The notes under the pieces are model-generated. The model did not search any database. It was given only the letters and a program-made list of their open reading frames with translations, and had not been told where the DNA came from. Below, one piece after another: positions 1 to 17,518 of a DNA stretch of 64,000 nt. How positions within the stretch are numbered: position 1 is the stretch's first letter; each line of letters begins with the position of its first letter. The DNA is from an uncultured Alphaproteobacteria bacterium (GTDB lineage: Bacteria > Pseudomonadota > Alphaproteobacteria > HIMB59): positions 248,001 to 312,000 of the forward strand of contig CACMGP010000001.1 of the NCBI GenBank assembly GCA_902613185.1, written 5' to 3'. The translations under genes were made by a program, and so were the position numbers.

Positions 1-557
1 CAAATCCAAAATATAGCTGGCAAGAAAAATATTAAAGAGGTACCCACTAAAATCGACAAATAGAGCCTTCCTGCAGATTGCGATTCAGCGTTTTGCTTAT
101 GTCCAACTAAAGGGAAAGTTGAAAAAGTTAATATTTCATAAAAAATAAATAAGACTAGAAGATTTCCAGACCAAGCTATTGCCAATGCAGCATGGATTGC
201 GATTGAATAAAAAATTACAAATCTTGTTTGATTTTTTTCTCCAGCACCCCTCATATAACCAATAGTGTAGATAGATGCCAGTATCCATAATGAAGATGCC
301 ACTAAACTAAAAATAGATCCAAGAGCTGATACTTTAAAAGCAAAATCTACCCCATCAAAAAGTGTAAAAAAAGTTATTTGATATACCTCATTATTTTGTA
401 TTCCATGAAAAATTTTTAAACTGATTACAAAGGTTATGAGACCTCCAATTATACCAAAAGAGTCTCTTAAGTTATTATTATATCTACAGACATAAGAAAA
501 TAATGCTGCAAAAAGTGGGGTGATAATACCCAGTATAATTAAAAACGAATTACTCAA
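1..557 (-). CDS. Mrp/Mnh antiporter MnhD/NuoN-like membrane subunit (3'-truncated by the window edge; TTG start)
   Basis: Minus-strand reading frame not in the ORF track: (M)SNSFLIILGIITPLFAALFSYVCRY...LWILASIYTIGYMRG...HAALAIAWSGNLLVLFIFYEILTFSTFPLVGHKQ, typical of proton-translocating antiporter subunits. TTG start overlaps the upstream gene's stop (TTGA). Confidence 0.8.
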   Translation of the reverse strand, partial: MSNSFLIILGIITPLFAALFSYVCRYNNNLRDSFGIIGGLITFVISLKIFHGIQNNEVYQITFFTLFDGVDFAFKVSALGSIFSLVASSLWILASIYTIGYMRGAGEKNQTRFVIFYSIAIHAALAIAWSGNLLVLFIFYEILTFSTFPLVGHKQNAESQSAGRLYLSILVGTSLIFFLPAIFWI

Positions 558-2050
558 TTTTGATAACCTGATATTAAATAGTCTGCGGACAAGTTAGAAA
601 ATTCAATTATTGGTGTTGAATATATCCCAAAAACAATGATTGAAATTGTAACTATCCATATTGGTAAATAAATATAAGCATCTTCTTTTTCAGATTTAAA
701 TTTAATTTCTGAAAACCACATCTGTTCCACTATTTTCCAGAAATATACAACAGCTAATGCGGAGCTTACCGCAACTAAAGCGATTGAAAAATACATCTGG
801 TTTGTATAAAGAGCTTGAAATAAATATAATTTTGAAATGAAGCCATTTGTTAGAGGTAATCCAATTAAAGATAATCCACAAATTAATAAAGCAAATGAAG
901 TTATGGGGTATTTATAGCCAAAACCTTTTAAACTGTTTAGGGTTACTCGATCCTTATAAAGGATAGCGAAGTAACCAACAGCCATAAATAATCCTCCTTT
1001 GATCAAAGCATGATTAAATATATGCACAAAGCCCGAAGCTACTCCACTGTGGTCTTTAAGGCTAAAAGCCAGTGTGATGTAACCAATTTGCGCAATTGAG
1101 GAAAATGCCAAAAGTTTTTTGATATCATCTTGATAGATGGCTATTACAGTCCCAATGAATATAGCCAGTAAAGATAGAGGATATAAAACAAAATCTAAAA
1201 ACAAACTTAAATAGCTCGGATAAATTATGAATACTTCGTACAAAAGTCTCACAAAAAAATAAAGAATTGTTTTTGTTGCTAAAGCAGCCAAAAGTGTTGA
1301 GACAGCTGATGGAGCATAACTATATGCAGGTGGTAACCAAATATGGACAGGAAAAATTGCAGCCTTTACCATAAGACCTATAAGCATGAATGACATACCT
1401 GCGAAGATAGCTAACTGACCATCGGAATATTGGGCCAGTTGAATTACAAGATCATTCATGTTCAACGTACCTGTCATAGCGTAGGCAAAGCCAACCCCAA
1501 TTACATAAAATGTAGCCCCGATCGCCCCGATAATTAGATAATTAAAAGCTGCGAGTAATGCTTTTCTATTTTGTCCTGCACCTAAGGCAATTAAAGAAAT
1601 AGAAGCTAATGCAGATATTTCTAAAAAGACAAATAAATTGAAAATATCATTAGTTAAAATAATCCCGTTCAGGCTTCCAACTGCCAATAACCACAAAGAA
1701 TAGGCCTTTCCAGAGTCCCTATAGTCAATTTCATTCAAGAAGATTTTTCTTGAGTAAAATGTTGATACCAAAACAAAAATTGAAAATAACAATTGAAGTC
1801 CAATATTCACCCCGTCTATTTTAAAAGAAATACCCCATGGTGGTTCCCAATTTCCAAACTCATATATAATTAAACCAGAAACAGAAATTTCTTTAAGAAG
1901 ATGCAAAGATAAAAATAAATGTAACAACAAAGTGATGATTGAAATTATCCAAGGCCATATTTTTGACGGCATAAATGCAATAATTGCAGAAATAAGTAGA
2001 GGTAAAACTACAACCAATGCAGGAGCATCGTCTAAAAATATATCAAACAT
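554..2050 (-). CDS. mnhD: Mrp-type Na+/H+ antiporter subunit D
   Basis: 498 aa polytopic; proton antiporter motifs (LFVFLEISALASISLIALG, KAAIFPVHIWLPPAYSYAPSAVSTLLAALATK, LLAFSSIAQIGY); operon context. Confidence 0.9.
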   Translation of the reverse strand: MFDIFLDDAPALVVVLPLLISAIIAFMPSKIWPWIISIITLLLHLFLSLHLLKEISVSGLIIYEFGNWEPPWGISFKIDGVNIGLQLLFSIFVLVSTFYSRKIFLNEIDYRDSGKAYSLWLLAVGSLNGIILTNDIFNLFVFLEISALASISLIALGAGQNRKALLAAFNYLIIGAIGATFYVIGVGFAYAMTGTLNMNDLVIQLAQYSDGQLAIFAGMSFMLIGLMVKAAIFPVHIWLPPAYSYAPSAVSTLLAALATKTILYFFVRLLYEVFIIYPSYLSLFLDFVLYPLSLLAIFIGTVIAIYQDDIKKLLAFSSIAQIGYITLAFSLKDHSGVASGFVHIFNHALIKGGLFMAVGYFAILYKDRVTLNSLKGFGYKYPITSFALLICGLSLIGLPLTNGFISKLYLFQALYTNQMYFSIALVAVSSALAVVYFWKIVEQMWFSEIKFKSEKEDAYIYLPIWIVTISIIVFGIYSTPIIEFSNLSADYLISGYQN

Positions 2051-2413
2051 TTATTTATCTGACTTTAGCTCCAAAGACTCTATTTCTTTTTCTTCAATTG
2101 TTTCGTAGTTCTTGTAAATTTGTAATACTAAAGCTAATCCAAGCGCTGAAGTAGCCACTCCAACGACGATAGCGGTCAGTATTAAGACGTGTGGCAATGG
2201 ATTTGAATAGGCATTTGCCATTTTTGTTAATATAGGGGCGGTTCCATCTAAAACTTTTGCAAGTGATACAAAAAATACAAAAACTGCAGTTTGAAAAATT
2301 GCTAAGCCAACTACTTTTTTTAAATAGTTTTGACTTGTGATGATTATAAATAATCCGCCAACCATAAGTAAAATAAAGGCAAAATGGTTCCAAAAATAAA
2401 TAAAATTACTCAT
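2051..2413 (-). CDS. mnhC: Mrp-type antiporter subunit C (MnhC/NuoK-like)
   Basis: MSNFIYFWNHFAFILLMVGGLFIIITSQNYLKKVVGLAIFQTAV; NuoK-like. Start trimmed to internal ATG at 2413 (ORF track extends to 2452). Confidence 0.85.
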   Translation of the reverse strand: MSNFIYFWNHFAFILLMVGGLFIIITSQNYLKKVVGLAIFQTAVFVFFVSLAKVLDGTAPILTKMANAYSNPLPHVLILTAIVVGVATSALGLALVLQIYKNYETIEEKEIESLELKSDK

Positions 2414-2843
2414 TAATTTCCCCAAAGGAAGCAAAAGAGTGATACAAAGCAATCATTACAGTTGCAACTGTAATGCCTACTCCTAGCTCAACTAATATAA
2501 TACCAATATGTTGACCAGTTGATGGGTCTGATGACAAAACATTGTAATCTAAATACATCCCATCAAGAAATATTGAAACTATTCCGACACCTGCATATAA
2601 CAAAACACCTGTGCACATTAAATATCGATTGATCATTATTGGAACTAAAGTTTCTCCTTTTGAAAGCCCAAATATCATTGAATACAATATAAATGCTGCC
2701 GCTACAATTACCCCAGCCTGAAATCCACCGCCTGGTCCATAGTCACCATGAAATTGAACGTAAAGCCCAAATATAATAATCGGTGCGAAAAGAATTTTGC
2801 TAACAACGCTTAATACTGGACTAGATGAAATTTTATCTCTCAT
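2406..2843 (-). CDS. mnhB: Mrp-type antiporter subunit B
   Basis: 145 aa; FHGDYGPGGGFQAGVIVAAAFIL is the MnhB signature (GHxxPGGGFxxG). Confidence 0.9.
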   Translation of the reverse strand: MRDKISSSPVLSVVSKILFAPIIIFGLYVQFHGDYGPGGGFQAGVIVAAAFILYSMIFGLSKGETLVPIMINRYLMCTGVLLYAGVGIVSIFLDGMYLDYNVLSSDPSTGQHIGIILVELGVGITVATVMIALYHSFASFGEINE

Positions 2844-3402
2844 TTTTTTTATTTTTTTTAAAATTAGTTTTACGATTAAGAGTGTTGCTAGTTAATAAAG
2901 CAATGACACCTAAGCCTGCGGTAAATATTACTATTGTTTCTCCCAAAGTATCAAAACCTCTATAACTTGCTAAAATATTAGTAACAACATTAGGTATATG
3001 AAAAAAATCTTTACTTTCCTTTAAGTACTCTGGAACTACATGAAGATGTATTGGTGCATTAGGATCTCCTAATAAAGGGAGGTTTGAAATTATAATAATC
3101 AATATAAGTGATATCGCTACTGCAAGAATAATGCTCGGAAATAAGTTTATTAATTTATTTTTTTTTCCTTCTGGTAATTTCGCAGCAGCCATTACCATTA
3201 AAATTGTTGATATACCAGAACCAACTGCAGCTTCAGTAAATGCTACATCAACCGCATCTAAATTCACATATATAGCTGAGCATAACAAAGTAAAAGCGCC
3301 TGTGAGTGCAACAACACTTATTAATGACGTGGTTTTAAAAATAAAAAAGGTTGTTACCAATAGAAGCGAAATTAAGAAAAAATTAATTAATAAAAAGTTC
3401 AT
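2833..3402 (-). CDS. Mrp/Mbh-type subunit equivalent to the MrpA C-terminal region (DUF4040/MbhD-like, plus MbhE-like)
   Basis: 189 aa; LDAVDVAFTEAAVGSGISTILMVMAA matches the MrpA C-terminal/MbhD motif (xPDVAxTEAAVGxG). Confidence 0.8.
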   Translation of the reverse strand: MNFLLINFFLISLLLVTTFFIFKTTSLISVVALTGAFTLLCSAIYVNLDAVDVAFTEAAVGSGISTILMVMAAAKLPEGKKNKLINLFPSIILAVAISLILIIIISNLPLLGDPNAPIHLHVVPEYLKESKDFFHIPNVVTNILASYRGFDTLGETIVIFTAGLGVIALLTSNTLNRKTNFKKNKKNER

Positions 3403-3713
3403 TTTTTATTTTTTCCCTTTGGCTTATACCCCGACTCATGTGCAAATAGAGCTATTGCATGGCCTGTTACAGGGCTAGTAAATATTAAAAATAACGGTAT
3501 TAATAAAAGTTTAAGACTTAATAAACTAAAACCAGAATAAACTATCAAAGCTAAGACTATAAAACCTGATCCTAGAGTATCAATTAAACCAGCAGCATGA
3601 ATTCGACTAAATACATCGGGTAACTTTATAAGGCCTAGACTTCCAGATAAAATGAAGAAGCAGCCAATAGCTAATAAGACTAAAGAAATTAACTCGATAT
3701 AATTATACGACAT
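3399..3713 (-). CDS. mnhG: Mrp-type antiporter subunit G
   Basis: 104 aa; GSLGLIKLPDVFSRIHAAGLIDTLGSGFIVLAL (MnhG signature). Confidence 0.9.
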   Translation of the reverse strand: MSYNYIELISLVLLAIGCFFILSGSLGLIKLPDVFSRIHAAGLIDTLGSGFIVLALIVYSGFSLLSLKLLLIPLFLIFTSPVTGHAIALFAHESGYKPKGKNKK

Positions 3714-3972
3714 TACTTTTTTTTCTTTTTATTTTGTAATACCTAAGTATTGCAATGGTGCCTAAAAAATTCAAAAGTATATACATCAAAGAAATATCGA
3801 CAAAATCAGGTCTATCAAATGCAAAACCATGAACACTGATACCTATGGCTATAATAGTTCCAATGCTTGATATAGATAATATTCTATCAAAAGGAGTTGG
3901 TCCTTTGATTGCTCGAACTAAACATAATGCTACAGAGACGCCCAGAAAAATTAAAGTTGCAAAAAAAATCAT
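3703..3972 (-). CDS. mnhF: Mrp-type antiporter subunit F
   Basis: 89 aa; LVRAIKGPTPFDRILSISSIGT (MnhF signature RxxxGPxxxDR). Confidence 0.9.
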   Translation of the reverse strand: MIFFATLIFLGVSVALCLVRAIKGPTPFDRILSISSIGTIIAIGISVHGFAFDRPDFVDISLMYILLNFLGTIAILRYYKIKRKKSNVV

Positions 3973-4463
3973 TTATCTAAATCCGTAATTACTTTGTTCA
4001 TATCATCTGTTTGCAAGTCTTCTGATAGCTTCTTACTTAATGCGTGAACTAGAAATGTTTTTTTATCTACTTCTATTGTTACTGTACCCGGAGTAAGAGT
4101 TATAGCGTTTGCATAGTTTGCAATACCTGTTCTATTCTTCTGAGATGCTTTAACACTTATTAGTTGTGGAGAGTATTTACCATTCCATATTAAAGCTGTT
4201 GTCGTAATTCCAGATTTAAAAATTTCTTTAAATAACCAAATCCAATAAAATGGTAATCTAAGAATAATTTTTAAAGGAAGAGAGTCTTCCTCGAGAGCTT
4301 TAGCTCTATAAGACATCCAAAAAACAAAAAGAACACTGACTAGTCCAAAAAAAAGTAAAAGCGATTTAAGGTAACCAGATAAAATAAACCAGAATACAAA
4401 AAGTATTATGAAATAAGTTATAAATGATAAGGTCTTAAGTGAATCTTTATTAAGTTTAGCCAC
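3969..4463 (-). CDS. mnhE: Mrp-type antiporter subunit E
   Basis: 164 aa; NAITLTPGTVTIEVDKKTFLVHAL (MnhE signature). Confidence 0.9.
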   Translation of the reverse strand: MAKLNKDSLKTLSFITYFIILFVFWFILSGYLKSLLLFFGLVSVLFVFWMSYRAKALEEDSLPLKIILRLPFYWIWLFKEIFKSGITTTALIWNGKYSPQLISVKASQKNRTGIANYANAITLTPGTVTIEVDKKTFLVHALSKKLSEDLQTDDMNKVITDLDK

Positions 4464-4472
4464 TAAAAGCTA

Positions 4473-5390
4473 TTATGAGAATAAATCACCCTCTGTAAAT
4501 ACTGCAGTATTCATGTCTTTAACAAATAATTTACCTTGGTCTGATTTAAATCTTGATACCTCAATAAATCCACCTTTAACTGCGATTCTGACGTTTTCAG
4601 CATTAATTGATATGATTTGACCTGGAAAATGCTCAGCACTTTGCTCGTCAATAAACTTAGTGTCATAAAAGACGTACTCATCACCCATGAATTCAGCCCA
4701 TGCACCAGGCTGAGGGTTGCAACCCCTTATTAAATTATAAATTTCGTTTCCGGGTTTTTTCCAATCAATTCTTGCATCACTTTTTTTACACCAAGACTCA
4801 TATGTTGCTTTAGAGTCATCTTGAGGTGTCTTTGGTGCATTACCAGACTCAATTAAATTTGCTGCTTCAACACAAGCTTCAAGACCTAATGGAAATATCT
4901 TTTTAAAGTAAACATCTCCTAAAGTATCATCAGGACCAATATCAACTTCTTTTTGAAGTAATATTTCACCCTCATCTAGCCCATCGTTTGGATAAAAAAT
5001 TGAAAGACCTGTTTTTGTGGAGCCACCAATTATAGGCCAGTTTATTGAACTTGGTCCTCTATGGAGTGGAAGTAGTGAGGGGTGAAAACAAATAGATCCA
5101 TGAGTGGGAATATCTCTCGCTCCTTCAGGCACAAAAATTATTACATAAGCCATGACACATAAATCGGCACCATGAGACTTAATTTGGTCTAGTACCTCTT
5201 GGTCTTTAAAATTTGAGGGTTGGTAAACAGGCAAACTAACACTTTGAGCGTATTCTTTAACAGGATCGACTGGTTTACCCTCTTTGTCAGGTGCACAATA
5301 TACCGCTACTACTTCATGGTCTGTTTCTGTATGAAATTTTTCTAAAGCACTTTTTCCAAATGCCTGTTGCCCCATTAAAATTATTTTCAT
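4473..5390 (-). CDS. Standalone formyltransferase resembling the N-terminal hydrolase domain of 10-formyl-THF dehydrogenase
   Basis: 305 aa; MKIILMGQQAFGKSAL..., HGSICFHPSLLPLHRGPSSINWPIIGG, DDGLDEGEILLQKEVDIGPDDT: formyl_trans_N with catalytic His and Asp plus a C-terminal FMT-like domain. No aldehyde dehydrogenase domain. Confidence 0.85.
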   Translation of the reverse strand: MKIILMGQQAFGKSALEKFHTETDHEVVAVYCAPDKEGKPVDPVKEYAQSVSLPVYQPSNFKDQEVLDQIKSHGADLCVMAYVIIFVPEGARDIPTHGSICFHPSLLPLHRGPSSINWPIIGGSTKTGLSIFYPNDGLDEGEILLQKEVDIGPDDTLGDVYFKKIFPLGLEACVEAANLIESGNAPKTPQDDSKATYESWCKKSDARIDWKKPGNEIYNLIRGCNPQPGAWAEFMGDEYVFYDTKFIDEQSAEHFPGQIISINAENVRIAVKGGFIEVSRFKSDQGKLFVKDMNTAVFTEGDLFS

Positions 5391-5416
5391 TATTGCTCCT
5401 TAAATTAAAATATATC

Positions 5417-6664
5417 TTATACTGCTCCGGCCTCTCTTACAGCTTTAATTTCATCGTCACTCATCTGACAAAATTCTTTTAATATCTCATCAGTATGCTC
5501 TCCGAGAAGTGGAGATCTTTCAACTTTTGCTGGGGAGTCAGATAACTTAATTGGATTACCAACAGTCAAATATTTCCCTCGTTCAGGGTGATCGACTTCG
5601 ACTATAGTATTAGTGTCTCTTAGGCCTTGATCTTCAGCTAATTCTTTTAGAGATAATATTGGGCCAACTGGTATATCTAAAGGGTTACATATATCCATAA
5701 CCTCAAATTTAGTCTTGGTCATTGTCCATGACTCAATTGTATCAAATATTTCGTTTAACCTTGGTAGTCTTTTAGCAGGAGTTGAGTAATTTTCATCCTC
5801 TTTCCATTCGGGTTTACCAATAACATCACATACTTTTTCCCAAACAGCCGCCTGGGTAATAAAATATGTATATGCATTAGGATCCTTTTCCCAACCTTTA
5901 CATTTTAGAATTCTTCCTGGCTGACCACCACCTGAGTCGTTACCTGCGCGAGGCGTAGAGTCACCAAAAGGAATGTCTTCTCCAAATTGAGAGTATTCTT
6001 TTAAAGGCCCTCTTGAAAGTCTCTGTTGGTCACGAAGTTTAACTCTGCAAAGATTTAAAACTCCATCTTGCATTGCGGCAGATACTCTTTGTCCCTTTCC
6101 TGACTTTTCTCTATGGAATAAAGCAGTAACTATACCCAATGCTAAGTGAAGTCCTGTTCCACTATCTCCTATTTGTGCACCAGTGACTAAAGGAACTTCT
6201 CCAAGCATACCTGTAGTTGAAGCAGATCCACCTGCGCACTGAGCAACATTCTCATAAACTTTACAATCTTCATATTTGCCAGGACCAAAACCTTTAACAG
6301 ACGCATAAATCATTCTTGGATTTATTTCTTGAATTTTTTCCCATGAAAAGCCCATTCTATCTAAAGCACCAGGAGCAAAATTTTCTACCATGACATCACA
6401 CTCTTGGATTAACTTAGTAAATATTTTTGAACCCTCTGGTTTCTTTGGGTTTAATGTTATGCTTCTTTTATTTGAGTTCAGCATTGTAAAGTACAAACTG
6501 TCTGCATCAGGAACGTCTCTTAGCTGACCTCTTGTAGCATCACCCACTCCTGGTCTTTCAACTTTTACGACATCTGCACCAAACCAAGCTAGTAATTGTG
6601 TGCAAGTTGGTCCGGACTGGACGTGTGTCATGTCTAATATTTTGACACCTTTTAAAGCTTCCAT
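5417..6664 (-). CDS. frc: Formyl-CoA:oxalate CoA-transferase-like (family III CoA transferase)
   Basis: 415 aa; [112 protein letters not shown]; glycine loop and overall layout match Frc. Confidence 0.88.
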
Positions 6665-6680: not shown

Positions 6681-8357
6681 TTATTTGTACATAGTCTGGT
6701 TTTTTGTACCAGGAGCAAATTCTTCTTTATCCACCCAAATATTTACGATTGCAGGTATACCTGACTTTACGGCTTCTCTAGCTCTTTGAAGGGCAGGTTG
6801 GATTTCTTTTGCTTCTCTAACAGCTTCGCCATGACCATCAAAGATTTTTGCAAACTCATCAAAGTTAACATCACCCAAGATGTTTCCAACATTTCCTTTA
6901 TCTTCACCATACTTCATAATTTGACCAAATCTGATCTGGTTTTGAGCAGAGTTATTACCAATAACTGTTAAAACAGGTGCTTTGTGTCTGACAAAAGCCT
7001 CGAAGTCCATTCCGGTCATCGAAAAAGCACCATCACCACAATATAAAAGAATTTCTTTTTCAGGTGCAGCTAATTTGGCTGCAAGCGCGTATGGTACTCC
7101 GACACCTAAAGTTCCAAGGGGCCCTGGGTCCATCCAAGCACCAGGCATTCTAGGTTGAACTGCTTGAGCACTTATGGTTACAACGTCTCCTCCATCACCT
7201 ATGTATATAGTATCATCATTTAAAAACTGGTTGAGTTCCCAAGCTACTCTATAAGGACTAATAGGAGATTTATCTGTTGTAAATGTAGGCATCAATTTTT
7301 CTAAAGCTGCCTCTTCTCCAGATCGAAGTTCATTAAACCAATCTGATCGATCTTTTTTTGTTCCAGCTTCAGAGATAGCCTTTAGAGTTGTTCCTATATG
7401 TCCAACTAAACCAAGTGATATATCTCTATTTTTTCCAACAGTTCTATAGTCCATATCAATTTGAATAACAGTTGCGTTAGGATTTAATCTTTTACCGTAA
7501 CCCATTCTAAAATCAAAAGGTGTTCCAACAATTATAATACAATCTGACTTGGTAAAGGCATTTCTTCTTGTTCTGTGAAAGTGATGTGGGTCTCCAGGAG
7601 GCATTGAACCTCTTGCAGCACCATTTAAATAAGCAGGGATATTCATATTTTTAACAAAGTCGATTGCATCTTTCGTAGATTGGCAAGTCCAAACCTGTTG
7701 ACCTAAAAGTATGCATGGTCTCTCTGCATTTGAAATTATGTCTGCAGCTTTTTGTACATCTACTGGGTCTGCTAATGTTTTTGATGAAGCACTATATTTT
7801 CCAGCTTCTGGTAAGACGGCTTTGCTCATTGGAATTGAAGAGTCAAGTATGTCTCTTGGAATTTCTAAAAATGATGGACCAAAAGATCCATTTCTAGTTT
7901 CCCTAAAAGCCATTGATACCATGTCTGCACATCTCTCGGTTGACATTACAGTTGCTGCAAATTTTGTAATTGGTTGCATCATGTCTACGTGAGGTAAATC
8001 TTGTAAAGATCCCATTTTATGTTGTGTGAGTGAACTTTGTCCTCCTATTAAAAGCATTGGGATTTCAGCTCTAAAAGCATTTGCTACTCCTGTTAATGCA
8101 TGTGTCGTGCCTGGTCCAGCAGTAACAACTGCACACCCAGGTTTACCTGTCATTCTTGCATAACCATCAGCTGCATGAGAGGCAACTTCTTCATGACGCA
8201 CGTCAATAATTTTAATTCCTTCGTTTAGACATCCATTGTAAATATCAATAATGTGTCCCCCACATAAAGTGTAAATAACCTCAACTCCCTCTGCTTTAAG
8301 GGCTTTAGCAACCAGCTCCCCGCCAGTTATCATTTGTTCATTAGATCCTGTAGACAT
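6681..8357 (-). CDS. ThDP-dependent enzyme; 2-hydroxyacyl-CoA lyase / oxalyl-CoA decarboxylase / acetolactate synthase-like family
   Basis: 558 aa; RHEEVASHAADGYARMTGKPG (ThDP Glu), GDGAFSMTGMDFEAFVRHKAPVLTVIGNN (GDG-X24-NN). Adjacent to frc, but lacks the Oxc Tyr-Glu pair. Confidence 0.8.
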   Translation of the reverse strand: MSTGSNEQMITGGELVAKALKAEGVEVIYTLCGGHIIDIYNGCLNEGIKIIDVRHEEVASHAADGYARMTGKPGCAVVTAGPGTTHALTGVANAFRAEIPMLLIGGQSSLTQHKMGSLQDLPHVDMMQPITKFAATVMSTERCADMVSMAFRETRNGSFGPSFLEIPRDILDSSIPMSKAVLPEAGKYSASSKTLADPVDVQKAADIISNAERPCILLGQQVWTCQSTKDAIDFVKNMNIPAYLNGAARGSMPPGDPHHFHRTRRNAFTKSDCIIIVGTPFDFRMGYGKRLNPNATVIQIDMDYRTVGKNRDISLGLVGHIGTTLKAISEAGTKKDRSDWFNELRSGEEAALEKLMPTFTTDKSPISPYRVAWELNQFLNDDTIYIGDGGDVVTISAQAVQPRMPGAWMDPGPLGTLGVGVPYALAAKLAAPEKEILLYCGDGAFSMTGMDFEAFVRHKAPVLTVIGNNSAQNQIRFGQIMKYGEDKGNVGNILGDVNFDEFAKIFDGHGEAVREAKEIQPALQRAREAVKSGIPAIVNIWVDKEEFAPGTKNQTMYK

Positions 8358-8420: not shown

Positions 8421-9080
8421 TTATGAATTAATGCTTTCTTGTATCTTATCAACTAAAGTAAGTGCGTGATTTTTAAGAAGTTTTTCTGCTTTTGATGCCT
8501 GGCCTGCGACAAGAGATCTAACAATGTCATTGTGTTCATCAATTGATTTCACAGCTCTATGTGACTCTATTACAAATTTTTTCCTCAAGTATTGTAAATG
8601 AATTAACTGTGACTCTAAAATTTCTCCCATTAATTTTACTTTAGTTAATTTCATAATTTGATTATGAAATTTAATATTATCATTTGAGTAGTTATCAAGT
8701 TCAGACAAAACGTTCTCTTTTGAGTAATGACAATACTTATTTAAACTTTCAATCTCATCTTTAGTTGAATTAGCAATAATTAAATGAGCTGCATAACCCT
8801 CTAGACCTGCCCATACAGTTACAATATCAATCAATTCTTTTTTTGATTTTCTGTGCACAAATACGCCTCTTCTTGGAACTGTTTTAACAATTCCCTCTTG
8901 CTCTAATTTAGCAACAGCTTCTCGAATAGGTGTCCGACTAACTCCTAGCTTTTCAGATAATTGCCTCTCATCTAGATGAAAATCACTTTGTTTTAAATAT
9001 ATATTAAGTGACAAAATATATTTTTTTAGTGAATCGTATACCTTACCTTTTAGGTTTACCGTTCCTATTTTTTGGATCAT
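8421..9080 (-). CDS. GntR family transcriptional regulator, FCD (FadR) subfamily
   Basis: 219 aa; LDERQLSEKLGVSRTPIREAVAKLEQEGIVKTVPRRGVFV (GntR wHTH); FCD metal-site-type D/H residues (FHNQI, DEHNDIV, KNHALTLV). Confidence 0.92.
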   Translation of the reverse strand: MIQKIGTVNLKGKVYDSLKKYILSLNIYLKQSDFHLDERQLSEKLGVSRTPIREAVAKLEQEGIVKTVPRRGVFVHRKSKKELIDIVTVWAGLEGYAAHLIIANSTKDEIESLNKYCHYSKENVLSELDNYSNDNIKFHNQIMKLTKVKLMGEILESQLIHLQYLRKKFVIESHRAVKSIDEHNDIVRSLVAGQASKAEKLLKNHALTLVDKIQESINS

Positions 9081-10604
9081 TTATGTAGTCTGTGCTTTTT
9101 TAAAAAATTTTTTGTAGAGAGGGCCAAATGCTGGCATAATTAAAAGTACAATTGCAATATACATTATGATTGCAGCAATAGGTTTTTCTGCCATATCAAA
9201 AAATATTCCCATACTACCATCAGATAAAATTAGAGACTGTCTTAAAGCTTTTTCAGCTAATGGACCAAGAACAATAGATAAAACAGCTGGTGCCACAGGG
9301 TAATCTAATTTTCTCAAAATATATCCAGCAAAACCGAATAGCAACATTAACCATACGTCGTGAAGACTTTGTGTAGGTGCATAACCGCCTGTTACACAAA
9401 GAACAAAAATAACCGGGGCCAAGATGGCAAATGGTATCCTTAATACCATTAAAAAAGCTGGAATTAATGCAATATTTAAAACCAGTGTAAAGAAGTTAGC
9501 GATGTAAAGACTACCAATTAAGCCCCAAACAAACTCGGGTTCTTGAGTAAATAAAAGAGGACCTGGTGTAAGTCCCCATAAAATCATGCCACCAAGTAAA
9601 ATAGCAGTTGTAGGTGATCCTGGAATACCTAATGTTAACATAGGGAGCATACTTCCAGTACTAGCAGAATTATTTGCACATTCCGGAGCAACAACTCCAG
9701 CAGGAACACCTGAACCAAATTCTTTTGAATTTTTTGATAATTGTTTTGTAATTCCATATGACATAAGTGATGCCGGTGTGGCACCTGCCGCAGGGAGAAT
9801 TCCCACAAAGAAACCAAGAAATGAACCAATGTTCATTGCCATTATAGTTTTTTTAAGAGCACCAAATGCTCTTCCAACTTCCTTCATGTTGACTGATAAT
9901 TTTGACATTTGAACTTTACCTTTTGTTTCTTCAAGGGTCCAAAGCATCTCTCCAATTCCATAAATACCGATAGCAAGTACAAGGAAATTAATTCCATGAA
10001 GAAATCCAGGGATATTAAAGAAAATTAATCTTGGCTTTCCTGTAATTAGATCTAAGCCTATAGTTGATAAAGCTAATCCAATTAATATAGAAAAAATAGT
10101 TTTTGGAACGTCATCTCCACCTAAGCCTACAAATGTAGCAAAGGCCATTACCATTAATGCAAAGGTTTCAGGCGCATTAAATCTTAGTGCTACCTCAGCC
10201 AGAGGTGGTGCAAATAAAGTAAATAAAATAACGGATACAGTTCCACCAACGAAAGAACCGACTGCTGCTGCAGTTAAAGCTGTCATAGCTTCTCCCTTAA
10301 CAGCTAAGGGTCTTCCATCAAAAACTGTAGCTACTGCAGTAGAAGCTCCAGGTATACCTAGCATTACGGAACTTATGGCACCTCCATACATAGCGCCGTA
10401 ATAGACAGCTGCTAAAAATATTATTGCTGCAGTGGGTGGTATAATAAATGTAATTGGAATAAGTATTGCAACACCATTAACTGAACCAAGACCAGGCATT
10501 GCACCCACAAATAATCCAATTAGACAACCAAATACTAAAAGACCAAGGTTTAAGGGCTCAAAGGATACAAAAATTCCCTCTAGAAGAAGTATGAATACAT
10601 CCAT
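9081..10604 (-). CDS. tctA: Tripartite tricarboxylate transporter large membrane subunit TctA
   Basis: 507 aa; GLFVGAMPGLGSVNGVAILIPITF, AAVYYGAMYGGAISSVMLGIPG, TLGIPGSPTTAILLGGM. Confidence 0.95.
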   Translation of the reverse strand: MDVFILLLEGIFVSFEPLNLGLLVFGCLIGLFVGAMPGLGSVNGVAILIPITFIIPPTAAIIFLAAVYYGAMYGGAISSVMLGIPGASTAVATVFDGRPLAVKGEAMTALTAAAVGSFVGGTVSVILFTLFAPPLAEVALRFNAPETFALMVMAFATFVGLGGDDVPKTIFSILIGLALSTIGLDLITGKPRLIFFNIPGFLHGINFLVLAIGIYGIGEMLWTLEETKGKVQMSKLSVNMKEVGRAFGALKKTIMAMNIGSFLGFFVGILPAAGATPASLMSYGITKQLSKNSKEFGSGVPAGVVAPECANNSASTGSMLPMLTLGIPGSPTTAILLGGMILWGLTPGPLLFTQEPEFVWGLIGSLYIANFFTLVLNIALIPAFLMVLRIPFAILAPVIFVLCVTGGYAPTQSLHDVWLMLLFGFAGYILRKLDYPVAPAVLSIVLGPLAEKALRQSLILSDGSMGIFFDMAEKPIAAIIMYIAIVLLIMPAFGPLYKKFFKKAQTT

Positions 10605-10632: not shown

Positions 10633-11157
10633 TTAAGAATACATAAAATCGTATACTGGATAAAATAAGGGCTCTGAAATACCTTGGGGTAAAGGTATTT
10701 TTAAAAGCCATTCAAAAAATAAAAAGGTTAAAACTGGTGTGATTAAAGAGAATACAGATATAAATAGGACACTTTTAGAACTAAAATATCTAAGATAAAA
10801 AGCTAAAAAAAAGATAAGTGAAAAGTAAATTCCCAAATAGCCTATTGCTAAAACTAAAATAACTAATGAAATAATTGTTACTGCAATATATTTGAATGCT
10901 TCAGCCTCAATAAAAGGAGAGTCATCTTTAGATTGTGGTGACCTTTTTAGAACGAATTTAATTATGGTAAGGACAGTGCAGATAAGCATGCCAAGAGAAA
11001 GGTAAAAAGGAAGAAATCCCGCACCCATGTTTTCTTCTGCGTTCCATGTAATTCTATTCTCAGCACTTTTAATCATCAGAGCGATTGAGCATAACGCTAA
11101 AATAACGGCCACCGCAATTTCTGCTCTTTTGACAGTTATTTTGTTTGTTATGCTCAT
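10633..11157 (-). CDS. tctB: Tripartite tricarboxylate transporter small membrane subunit TctB
   Basis: 174 aa, 4-TM protein between tctC and tctA; GAGFLPFYLSLGMLICTVLTII. Confidence 0.85.
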   Translation of the reverse strand: MSITNKITVKRAEIAVAVILALCSIALMIKSAENRITWNAEENMGAGFLPFYLSLGMLICTVLTIIKFVLKRSPQSKDDSPFIEAEAFKYIAVTIISLVILVLAIGYLGIYFSLIFFLAFYLRYFSSKSVLFISVFSLITPVLTFLFFEWLLKIPLPQGISEPLFYPVYDFMYS

Positions 11158-11176: not shown

Positions 11177-12154
11177 TTAGTCAAAGTTTTTAATGATCTC
11201 ACCGTGCTTAGCATATTCGATTGCTAAGAAATCTTTAAGACCAAAACCCTCTAACCAGCTCATTAACTTTCCATCGTCGATGTTGAAAGTTTGGAACTCG
11301 TCATCATGATAAACAGTGTGAAGAAGTCCTGTGTAGTACTTCTCTACCTCTGCATCAACACCAGCTGGAGCCATGAATGCTCTCATCATATAGTATTCAA
11401 GATCAGGATAACCTAATTCATATGAAGATGGTACTTCTGGGAATGCAGGATTTCTCTCAGGAGTCATCATAACTAATGCTTTTGAATCACCTGATTGATA
11501 GAATCCCATCTGCTCAGAAGGGTTGTTTAATGTAAAATCTGACTCGCCGCCAACTAGACCTTTTGCAACAGCACCACCACCGTCATATGGTACGTACTTT
11601 GCATCAAATCCAAACTGACCTCTCATCATACCAAGAAGTAATTCGTCCTCAGACATACTTCCTGTGCCACCCATTACTAGACCATTGCCTTTAGCAAGTG
11701 CGATGAAGTCATCAAATGTTTCTACACCTTGAGTATTTTTACCTTCAGTTGCAATCCATACTAAGAATGTATCTGTAATAAGTCTTGCTAATGGTGTGAA
11801 GTCATTAAAGAAGTCAATTCCTAACTCAGGCTGGTTAACAGGTGTAGTTAGAACGTTGTTAAGAGTAATGATAAGTGTGTGCTCATCACCAGCTTTTTTC
11901 TTAACATAAGTCATAGCTTCACCACCAGAACCACCTTTTTTATTAATCGGAATCACTGGCTTAGATGCGTAGTCGTTTTTCTCGATAACACCTTGAACTA
12001 ATCTAGCAATTTCGTCAGCTCCACCACCTTGACCAGCTGGGATAATAAGTTCAATAGGCTTCTTTGGACTAAAAGGCTTCGCAGAAGACACTGAACTAAC
12101 AGCGACAAGTGAAAGTGAAACAATAACTAATGCTAATTTTTTGATTATTGACAT
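11177..12154 (-). CDS. tctC: Tripartite tricarboxylate transporter substrate-binding protein TctC
   Basis: 325 aa with signal peptide; FSPKKPIELIIPAGQGGGADEIARLV (Bug/TctC family). Strong RBS (GGAGGAAAC) upstream. Confidence 0.9.
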   Translation of the reverse strand: MSIIKKLALVIVSLSLVAVSSVSSAKPFSPKKPIELIIPAGQGGGADEIARLVQGVIEKNDYASKPVIPINKKGGSGGEAMTYVKKKAGDEHTLIITLNNVLTTPVNQPELGIDFFNDFTPLARLITDTFLVWIATEGKNTQGVETFDDFIALAKGNGLVMGGTGSMSEDELLLGMMRGQFGFDAKYVPYDGGGAVAKGLVGGESDFTLNNPSEQMGFYQSGDSKALVMMTPERNPAFPEVPSSYELGYPDLEYYMMRAFMAPAGVDAEVEKYYTGLLHTVYHDDEFQTFNIDDGKLMSWLEGFGLKDFLAIEYAKHGEIIKNFD

Positions 12155-14510: not shown

Positions 14511-15383
14511 ATGTCAGTATTAATTAATAAAAACACAAAAGTTATTTGCCAGGGTTTTACTGGTTCCCAAGGTACATTTCACTCAGAACAAGCTATAAAA
14601 TATGGAACTCAAATGGTTGGTGGGGTGACACCAAAGAAAGGTGGTCAAGAGCATTTAGGACTTCCTGTGTTTAATAGTGTTAAAGAGGCAAAAGACAACA
14701 CAGATGCAAATGCAACTGTAATATACGTTCCACCTCCTTTTGCAGCTGGTGCTATAACTGAAGCGATTGATGCAGACATGGAAATAATTGTTTGTATAAC
14801 TGAAGGAGTTCCAGTTCTTGATATGATGCAAGTAAAAAGAAAATTGGAAAAATCAAAATCGCGTTTAATTGGACCCAACTGCCCAGGAATAATTACTCCT
14901 GATGAATGCAAAATAGGCATTATGCCGGGTCATATTCACCAAAAAGGAAAAATAGGAGTTGTTAGTAGATCTGGCACATTGACATATGAAGCAGTAGCAC
15001 AAACTTCTGCTGTAGGTCTAGGTCAATCGACTTGTATTGGTATTGGGGGAGATCCTATTAACGGAACAAACTTTATAGATTGCCTTGATCTTTTTTTAAA
15101 AGATCCGGAAACCGAAGGAATCATAATGATTGGAGAGATTGGTGGAACTGCTGAAGAGGAAGCTGCAGAATTTATTAAAAAATCTGAAATAAAAAAACCA
15201 GTTGCTTCTTTTATAGCCGGTGCTAGTGCTCCTGCTGGAAAAAGAATGGGTCATGCAGGTGCAATTATTTCTGGTGGAAAAGGCACTGCAGAGTCAAAGT
15301 TTAGTGCTTTAGAAGAAGCAGGAGTTCATATATCCAAATCACCAGCAAAACTAGGTGAGACAATCAAAGAAGCTTTAAACTAA
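14511..15383 (+). CDS. sucD: Succinate--CoA ligase (ADP-forming) subunit alpha
   Basis: [29 protein letters not shown]...; [27 protein letters not shown]. Confidence 0.93.
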
Positions 15384-16357
15384 TATAATTTAGCTTCTTT
15401 AGCTCTAAGTTTAGTTAAAGCAAGAACTGTATCAATTGTAGGAGTTGGAACATTTGTAATTTTTCCAAGCTCTTGAACAGATGTGATTAAAGCATCAATC
15501 TCCATAGGTCTATCACGTTCTAAATCTTGAAGCATAGATGTTTTATGTTCGCCAACTGCTTTAGCTGCATCAATTCTTCTCTCAACATCGAAAGGCTTGT
15601 CTATTCCTAAATTTTGAGAAATTGCATGAGCTTCATTCATCATATTTTTTATGACGGCTCTAACATCGTCGTTGCTACAAATTTTGACAAGTGTAGATGT
15701 TGTAAGTGCACTAATAGGATTAAGAGAAAGATTACCAAAAAGTTTTAACCAGATATCACCTTTTATATTAGGTCTAACAGGTGCTTGAAAGCCTGCTTTC
15801 TCTAAAGTCTCAGAAAGATTTTTAATTCTATCTGTTTCCTCTCCATTAATTTCTCCTAGTTGAAACTTATCTCCCTCTAAGTGCTGAATGACACCTGGTT
15901 TGATAACTTCTGATGCGGGATTAACTATACAGCCGATGATTTTTTCAGGGCCAATTCGATCCCATTGACTTCCATCTGGATCAACTGAAGTAACTTTTTT
16001 ATCTTTGAAATCAGGGTTAGTGTGATTGTAGAAATACCACCATGGGATACCATTCACACCCCAAACAAATGAAGTGTCATCTTTCATAAGAACTTCAAAT
16101 GCATCAAGACAACCAGGAACTGAATGAGCTTTTAGAGTAACAAAAATATAGTCTTGCTTTCCTGCTTTTTCCGCTGTGTCTACACACTTTGGATACACAA
16201 CTAGTTCTTTGCCATCTTTCCTTAATCTCAGTCCATCTTGCTTGATAGCCTGATAATGAGGCCCCCTAGCAATTAAAGTTACATCTGCACCTATCTCAGT
16301 AAGTTTTGCTCCCAAATAACCACCAATAGCTCCTGCACCGTAAATACAAATTTTCAT
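15380..16357 (-). CDS. Ketopantoate reductase family protein (PanE/ApbA-like)
   Basis: 325 aa; [32 protein letters not shown] (Rossmann), [17 protein letters not shown]. Stop overlaps the sucD stop convergently. Confidence 0.8.
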
Positions 16358-17518
16358 TTAAGCCTTTAAATGTTTGATGGCAGCAGCAACACCACTTCCA
16401 AGTTCAAATTTTATTCCCACATCGTACATCGCTAATTCTGCAGTAGAAATTGCACCTAAAATCATGGTGCTATTTAAATCTCCAAGGTGACCTATTCTAA
16501 ACAACTTTCCTGCTACTTTATTAAGCCCTCCTCCAAACGAGGTGTTATACTTGTTGTATGCTGTTTTAACAACATCAGTAGAGTCAATTCCCTCAGGTAC
16601 CATTATTGCTGTGACAGTATTTGAATAAAGTGATGGATCTTTTGCACAAAGTTTAAGACCCCATGCAATAGATGCTTTTTGAACAGCTTGAGCTAAAAAT
16701 TTATGACGTGCATAAATATTATCAATTCCCTCTTCCATCATCATATTAAGCGCCTCTCTAAGTCCTCTTAATAGTGGCATTGGATTAGTATAAGGCCAAT
16801 AGCCTGTTTCATTTATTTTAAGCATATCATGATAATCATAGTAAGCTCTGGGTAAGTTAGATGTTTTTGCAATTTCTAAAGCCTTTTGGCTTACACATGA
16901 TATAGCTAAACCAGCAGGTAACATAAATCCTTTTTGAGAGCCTGAAACTGCAACATCAACCCCCCATGCATCCATTTCAAATTTGATTGAACCTATTGAG
17001 CTTACGCCATCAACAAATAGTAAGGCAGGATGATTAAGATTATTTAAAAGGTCTCTTGTTGCTTTAACATCATTTGTAACCCCTGTGGAGGTTTCATTAT
17101 GAGTTACAAGAACTGCTTTAATTGTATGATCTTTGTCTTCTGATAATATTTTTTCAAATTCGTCATGAGGCGTCCCGGAACCCCACTCTAAATCAACTTC
17201 CTCAACATCAATATGTAGTTTTTTACACATTTCTATCCAAAGGTGTGAAAAATGTCCAAATCTAGCTGATAAAACTCTATCTCCCTTACTTAATAAATTT
17301 GTAAGTGCTGCTTCCCATCCACTTGAACCTGTACCAGGGAATATAATTGGTTGTGCAGATGTTGTCTCAAAAACTTTTTTTAAATCGTTTATTAGTGGGT
17401 GCCAAAATTTATCCATACCGGGTGCACGATGGTCCTCATTTGAAATATCCATCGCCTGTCTTACCCTATCTGGCATGTTTGTAGGTCCTGGTACGAAAAG
17501 TGAAATTTTACCTGGCAT
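16358..17518 (-). CDS. sgaA: Serine--glyoxylate / alanine--glyoxylate aminotransferase (class V)
   Basis: 386 aa; FVPGPTNMPDRVRQAM, VLVTHNETSTGV, DAWGVDVAVSGSQKGFMLPAGL (PLP lysine). Confidence 0.85.
   Translation of the reverse strand: MPGKISLFVPGPTNMPDRVRQAMDISNEDHRAPGMDKFWHPLINDLKKVFETTSAQPIIFPGTGSSGWEAALTNLLSKGDRVLSARFGHFSHLWIEMCKKLHIDVEEVDLEWGSGTPHDEFEKILSEDKDHTIKAVLVTHNETSTGVTNDVKATRDLLNNLNHPALLFVDGVSSIGSIKFEMDAWGVDVAVSGSQKGFMLPAGLAISCVSQKALEIAKTSNLPRAYYDYHDMLKINETGYWPYTNPMPLLRGLREALNMMMEEGIDNIYARHKFLAQAVQKASIAWGLKLCAKDPSLYSNTVTAIMVPEGIDSTDVVKTAYNKYNTSFGGGLNKVAGKLFRIGHLGDLNSTMILGAISTAELAMYDVGIKFELGSGVAAAIKHLKA

Follow-up and report, generated by a model that had tools for sequence, protein, structure and literature searches.

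Gene content of the locus

The window analysed here is a stretch of 64,000 nucleotides from an uncultured marine alphaproteobacterium. Positions 4473-5390 hold, on the minus strand, an intact open reading frame of 305 amino acids with an ATG start codon and an AGGAG ribosome-binding site (5396-5400, minus strand). We refer to its product, a standalone formyltransferase resembling the N-terminal domain of ALDH1L1, as FDHN. Two Pfam domains are found above their gathering cutoffs, Formyl_trans_N (96.6 bits, cutoff 26.1) and Formyl_trans_C (67.9 bits, cutoff 21.1), and these are the only ones: a Pfam search of the 305 residues returned no carrier or ALDH domain. The best solved relatives in the PDB are ALDH1L1 hydrolase domains (E 1e-62, approximately 36% identity), with methionyl-tRNA formyltransferase (Fmt) behind at 5e-38 and PurU giving a weak match only (E 2.4e-4). 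The reading frame, Pfam and PDB results bear out an earlier note on this DNA, which described a 305-residue protein made of the hydrolase and FMT_C portions with neither a carrier nor an ALDH domain; we add that it is encoded on the minus strand. An AlphaFold (AF2) model, for which the window and locus sequences were the input, has a pLDDT of 94.2, and its best E-value in Foldseek is to the ALDH1L1 hydrolase domain. The TM-score to Fmt (0.92) is slightly above that to the ALDH1L1 N-domain (0.86), although the E-values favour the latter. Because the TM-scores do not separate these two families, the fold alone is silent on the formyl acceptor.

FDHN is the last gene of a set that runs along the minus strand from position 12154 to 4473, its members separated by 0-63 nt. 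The set begins with three genes assigned by Pfam to a tripartite carboxylate transporter: TctC, a solute-binding protein (11177-12154) which, given how its tree interleaves with those of sister operons, probably serves oxalate uptake; TctB, the small membrane subunit (10633-11157); and TctA, the large membrane subunit (9081-10604). These are followed by a GntR/FCD regulator (8421-9080; Pfam), which is conserved in the sister operons, and by a TPP enzyme resembling 2-hydroxyacyl-CoA lyase (HACL), proposed below to be a non-orthologous oxalyl-CoA decarboxylase (6681-8357). Directly upstream of FDHN, across a gap of 26 nt, lies frc (5417-6664), encoding formyl-CoA:oxalate CoA-transferase, so that the placement of FDHN in an frc operon by the earlier note holds. 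Frc scores 693.9 bits against TIGR03253 (cutoff 504.2), and carries the glycine-rich loop of formyl-CoA:oxalate transferases (SGGGQ) and the GDS context of the nucleophile. Scans for promoters and terminators gave results no better than those from shuffled sequence.

About 3 kb beyond the operon, also on the minus strand, are an ApbA/PanE-like reductase (15380-16357), which is the only ApbA_C gene in the genome and a candidate oxalyl-CoA reductase, and a glyoxylate aminotransferase-like (BhcA/SGAT) gene that abuts it (16358-17518). Relatives of the reductase are found near some of the sister operons, and for ApbA2 of C. necator a role as CoA-acylating glyoxylate dehydrogenase has been proposed (PMC7486775). 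We infer membership of both genes in the pathway, and an assimilatory branch leading from oxalyl-CoA through glyoxylate to glycine is plausible in this organism. On the other side of FDHN, an operon for an Mrp/Mnh-type Na+/H+ antiporter (window positions 554-4463) begins 9 nt past the FDHN stop codon and is syntenic in the organism's own genus only. Because oxalate decarboxylation uses up protons, a link to this antiporter through pH is conceivable. The neighbouring SucCD was considered as a dedicated acid-CoA ligase and rejected: it is the genome's only succinate-CoA ligase, which points to an ordinary role in the TCA cycle.

FDHN and methionyl-tRNA formyltransferase

Three genes with a Formyl_trans_N domain are present in the genome of the organism (1.35 Mb, 92% complete). 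Besides FDHN these are a canonical fmt and a short one that is PurN-like. Could FDHN be an ordinary second Fmt? It does match the fmt equivalog model TIGR00460 weakly, and one plasmid-borne relative is annotated as fmt. However, its score of 157.3 bits falls below the cutoff of 201.5, whereas the canonical Fmt scores 246.1. The canonical gene adjoins def elsewhere in the genome, while FDHN has no linkage to def. The earlier note had already remarked on this missing neighbour and on a motif (FHPS rather than NVHxS) unlike that of Fmt, and both observations stand up to alignment and inspection of the gene neighbours; its proviso that the genome be checked for a separate def-fmt pair is answered by the one found here, which removes the possibility that FDHN is the only fmt. 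Considering the score, the motif, the existing def-fmt pair and the separate clade in which FDHN falls (below), we rejected this possibility, which we regard as very improbable.

The active-site motif of FDHN reads S-I-C-F-H103-P-S105 and is joined by D139. The codons for Cys101, Phe102 and the catalytic His103 occupy positions 5082-5090, and that for the catalytic Asp139, equivalent to Asp142 of ALDH1L1, occupies 4974-4976 (both minus strand). H103 and D139 are invariant in the 108 FDHN family rows of our alignment. Two residues before the histidine, the amine formyltransferases Fmt and ArnA and the organism's own PurN have asparagine, giving the Asn-x-His motif of Fmt, whereas FDHN has cysteine. 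Family-wide this position is Gln or Cys; ALDH1L1 has Ile here and HoxX has Val. A second block, RG[PA]S[AS]xxW, is common to the FDHN family, ALDH1L1 and HoxX, where Fmt has RGAAPxxR instead. Since the search patterns that yielded the L075-L154 set cover these positions, counts from that set, including those of Q/C, are in part preset, but the protein-searched set agrees. These comparisons suggest that the FDHN active site, which lacks the asparagine of amine formyltransferases, is of the thiol type, as in ALDH1L1 and HypX.

In a phylogenetic tree, the FDHN family and the ALDH1L1 N-domain are split from Fmt and ArnA by a branch with 100/99 support. The animal ALDH1L1 N-domain branches among bacterial FDHN sequences. 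Subject to the rooting of the tree, this placement suggests a bacterial source for the ALDH1L1 N-domain.

Distribution of FDHN

Within the genus, 42 of 52 genomes (the present one included) have a match at 81% identity or more, and those without a match are mostly incomplete drafts. We did not find FDHN in the sister family within the order. Beyond the genus the family is patchy: of 385 genomes sampled throughout the class, 34 have a clear member, two borderline hits (about 141-144 bits) not being counted, and some members occur in other classes, with homologues at 46-66% identity scattered through the Alpha- and Gammaproteobacteria. A scan of public genomes yielded 80 FDHN loci, from Rhodospirillales, Rhodobacteraceae, Hyphomicrobiales, Kiloniellaceae, Granulosicoccaceae, Thioglobus and others. 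A tblastn search of plasmids returned one real family member, on a Paracoccaceae plasmid, the remaining matches resembling fmt, and a scan of viral contigs found nothing. With its presence in most genomes of the genus and its synteny with Frc across classes, the occurrence of FDHN in this setting is far beyond chance.

Genomic association with Frc and Fhs

Neighbours of FDHN were counted with the organism's own genus left out, at loci picked by FDHN sequence only, so that the neighbours themselves were not selected for. In 72 of the 98 loci with room for it, Frc is the next gene upstream and has the same orientation, and the formate-THF ligase Fhs lies directly downstream in 41 of 68; the downstream gene, of 557 residues, is Fhs according to NCBIfam (931 bits, cutoff 652). 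When we considered the 63 loci where both sides of FDHN are visible, we found that 38 have both Frc and Fhs, 12 have Frc only, none has Fhs only, and 13 have neither. Metagenome-assembled genomes of Hyphomicrobiaceae encode, at two loci, in-frame FDHN-Fhs fusions uninterrupted by stop codons (L118:8180-10816, 879 residues; L119:10001-12652, 883 residues).

Co-occurrence was assessed in the 385 class genomes, counting Frc above its cutoff. FDHN and Frc are found together in 28, FDHN alone in 6, Frc alone in 7 and neither in 344 (Fisher p=2.7e-30; leaving out the organism's own genus, p=2.1e-26); these genomes are not independent of one another, but the hits span many families. Among eight genomes checked in which Frc is not beside FDHN, seven have an Frc above cutoff at another place in the genome. 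As for Fhs, 31 of the 34 FDHN genomes encode it, versus 174 of all 385. In the organism's own genus Fhs sits outside the operon, and in its own genome 182 kb away. The neighbours of FDHN in the 6 of 34 genomes without an Frc above cutoff have no consistent theme. The 7 genomes with Frc and no FDHN indicate that FDHN is not essential to the Frc cycle.

Several other features recur at these loci. In L143 and L144 (Thioglobus-like), L177 and L178, the TPP enzyme is directly beside FDHN, next to SucCD and GntR, and Frc is elsewhere in the genome. Two different Frc genes, one YfdW-like (about 70%) and the other of the window type, stand side by side before FDHN in genomes outside the Alphaproteobacteria (L196:5184-8335; L197:5796-8426). 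A universal-stress-family protein of 285 residues commonly follows Fhs (L097:12715-13572 and relatives), an NAD-type formate dehydrogenase is found near some operons, and several Rhodobacteraceae operons encode, downstream of TctA, a protein of 573-585 residues with a weak match to Zeta-toxin-like P-loop kinases (L151:15832-17553 and relatives).

Two TPP enzymes in otherwise similar operons

FDHN operons come in two kinds, and FDHN accompanies both kinds of formyl-CoA-producing TPP enzyme. One encodes a canonical oxalyl-CoA decarboxylase (OXC; TIGR03254, about 1000 bits, cutoff 739), and the other, to which the window belongs, encodes the HACL-like enzyme. In the Frc genomes we inspected, one or the other TPP enzyme is found beside Frc, with few gaps. 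The window enzyme is below the cutoffs of both TIGR03254 (245.8 bits, cutoff 739.4) and the 2-hydroxyacyl-CoA lyase model NF058623 (348.7 bits, cutoff 600), and the models match it as ALS/HACL-like only.

Since this enzyme is nearer to HACLs (32% identity to AcHACL, against 25% to E. coli Oxc), we had at first favoured a pathway in which the operon handles a 2-hydroxy acid by way of a 2-hydroxyacyl-CoA lyase rather than oxalate, with FDHN still acting on formyl-CoA. The trees of the partner genes led us to demote that reading. The TPP enzymes separate cleanly into two clades, but the FDHN, GntR, TctA, TctC and Frc trees interleave the HACL- and OXC-type operons, and AU tests gave p-values from 1e-5 to 1e-94. 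The window Frc groups with five Frcs from OXC operons (support 97/96), and a topology in which the HACL-operon Frcs stay in one group fails the AU test (p 1e-94). The simplest reading of this pattern is that the decarboxylase was repeatedly swapped within one oxalate pathway. The window Frc is in addition a TIGR03253 protein with the glycine loop of formyl-CoA:oxalate transferases, and the operon has no conserved gene for handling an aldehyde, both of which speak against a 2-hydroxy acid. We consider that substrate rather unlikely. From the sequence comparisons, the HACL-like enzyme seems to have replaced the canonical oxalyl-CoA decarboxylase, to which it is not orthologous, repeatedly in otherwise identical operons, the shared substrate of both operon kinds is most likely oxalate, and we infer the same substrate for the operon of this organism.

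Proposed role of FDHN

In oxalate degradation by Frc and a decarboxylase, formyl-CoA is the catalytic CoA donor and formate is the product. Formyl-CoA decays, with a half-life of 1.9 h (PMC3720670), or is lost when oxalyl-CoA is diverted, a need that Fhs and FDHN would meet from formate and ATP. In E. coli, YfdE has been proposed to prime the Frc/Oxc cycle (PMC3720670); leaving E. coli aside, a second gene of the transferase class of YfdE is near Frc in 4 of 95 scanned loci, and only one of these is YfdE-like and distant. Precedents for formyl transfer to a thiol exist in the relatives of FDHN. HypX has been proposed to form formyl-CoA from 10-formyl-THF (PMC6802093), and in intact ALDH1L1 the N-domain passes the formyl group to the thiol of the 4'-phosphopantetheine arm (PMC8748788), which makes the earlier note's description of this domain as an established hydrolase incomplete.

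Together, the linkage to formyl-CoA enzymes and Fhs and the thiol-type active site point to the reversible reaction 10-formyl-THF + CoA <-> formyl-CoA + THF. FDHN is probably a standalone 10-formyl-THF:CoA formyltransferase, able to exchange formyl groups in either direction, that serves oxalate breakdown by Frc and oxalyl-CoA decarboxylase in concert with Fhs, with CoA as the predicted acceptor and a reaction predicted to be reversible. His103 and Asp139 would activate the CoA thiol (or N10 of THF), so that the formyl group would move between sulfur and N10. Fhs would use ATP to convert pathway formate to 10-formyl-THF, which FDHN would then convert to formyl-CoA, and this formyl-CoA would prime the Frc cycle and replace losses through hydrolysis or through withdrawal of oxalyl-CoA for assimilation. 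Bookkeeping of the pathway tilts us slightly toward formyl-CoA formation as the net direction.

The same enzyme might instead work with the opposite net flow, draining formyl-CoA into 10-formyl-THF for serine and purine synthesis, or through reversed Fhs to ATP and formate, a scenario that overlaps with the exchange proposed above. FDHN does sit between Frc and Fhs, the previous step yields formyl-CoA, and no TIGR01591 formate dehydrogenase scores above cutoff in the organism's own genome, so that C1 units may have to exit by way of folate. However, Frc needs formyl-CoA for the next oxalate, and without a different CoA donor the cycle would break if it were drained; the pathway moreover already yields one formate per oxalate, which Fhs could capture. 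We view a net flow of this kind as possible though somewhat doubtful. Release of formate, the other option raised in the earlier note, has lost ground, whereas its alternative of a connector between formyl-CoA and folate has gained from the linkage to Frc and Fhs, the fusions, the co-occurrence and the ALDH1L1/HypX-type site. If it released formate, FDHN would be a 10-formyl-THF hydrolase (or formyl-CoA deformylase), as the isolated ALDH1L1 N-domain is in vitro, which would fit the lack of carrier and ALDH domains and the naming of its closest solved relatives as hydrolase domains. Yet fusion to or co-transcription with Fhs would then amount to a futile, ATP-burning cycle, making a hydrolase less likely than a connector, and a formyl-CoA deformylase would squander a thioester on which Frc depends; we judge this activity unlikely. 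Most characterised family members formylate amines, and FDHN could likewise formylate an amine or other acceptor from a folate donor, with the linkage to oxalate genes merely supplying formyl groups. The conserved asparagine of amine formyltransferases is missing from FDHN, however, and the conserved neighbours include no amine-sugar or tRNA partner, leaving little probability for such an acceptor.

Returning to FDHN as a folate-CoA formyl exchanger, a more encompassing proposal, which we put forward only tentatively, is that FDHN and Fhs constitute an ATP-driven formyl-CoA synthetase operating via folate (formate + ATP + CoA -> formyl-CoA), fused in some Hyphomicrobiaceae. Joined by Frc, they would amount to an oxalate-CoA ligase with formate in a catalytic role, paired in this streamlined marine alphaproteobacterial lineage with an unrecognised second, non-orthologous oxalyl-CoA decarboxylase.

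Significance and relation to known systems

Formyl-CoA is the turning point of both the Frc/Oxc and the 2-hydroxyacyl-CoA lyase pathways, and at issue are the source of the first formyl-CoA and the fate of any surplus. No dedicated formyl-CoA enzyme was found in PMC7176365, and our search of the open-access literature found no report of an enzyme such as we propose FDHN to be. The occurrence of FDHN in oxalate operons suggests a known kind of enzyme in a new pathway role. If our proposal is correct, a dedicated folate-CoA formyl exchanger would fill a pathway step that has had no assigned enzyme, annotations of FDHN relatives as "methionyl-tRNA formyltransferase" would be corrected, and a ready-made formate-to-formyl-CoA module would be available for synthetic C1 assimilation. 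FDHN moreover places the domain that may be the source of the ALDH1L1 N-terminus in a bacterial functional setting.

Fmt shares with FDHN its fold, its folate substrate and the His/Asp pair, but has the Asn-x-His motif, the def linkage and the above-cutoff TIGR00460 score that FDHN lacks. PurU, a formyl-THF deformylase, likewise cleaves the formyl group of folate with a Formyl_trans_N domain, but is an ACT-domain hydrolase. YfdE/UctC, an acetyl-CoA:oxalate CoA-transferase, resembles FDHN in its proposed role as primer of the Frc/Oxc cycle (PMC3720670), although it is an unrelated class III CoA-transferase that uses acetyl-CoA and is essentially absent from FDHN operons. The N-domain of HypX/HoxX, which acts in CO synthesis for NiFe hydrogenase, is close in its proposed transfer from 10-formyl-THF to CoA (PMC6802093), its HP motif, its RGPS-x-x-W block and its lack of the asparagine; it differs in being fused to a crotonase-like decarbonylase, in serving hydrogenase maturation, in having Gly in place of Ser, and in its great divergence (branch length 8.1). 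The ALDH1L1 N-domain has the same two-domain Formyl_trans_N/C fold, about 36% identity, the H-P-S...D residues without asparagine two before the histidine, and the block RG[PA]S[AS]INW. Unlike it, FDHN is free-standing, is encoded in oxalate operons, has Gln or Cys where ALDH1L1 has Ile, and is at times fused to Fhs.
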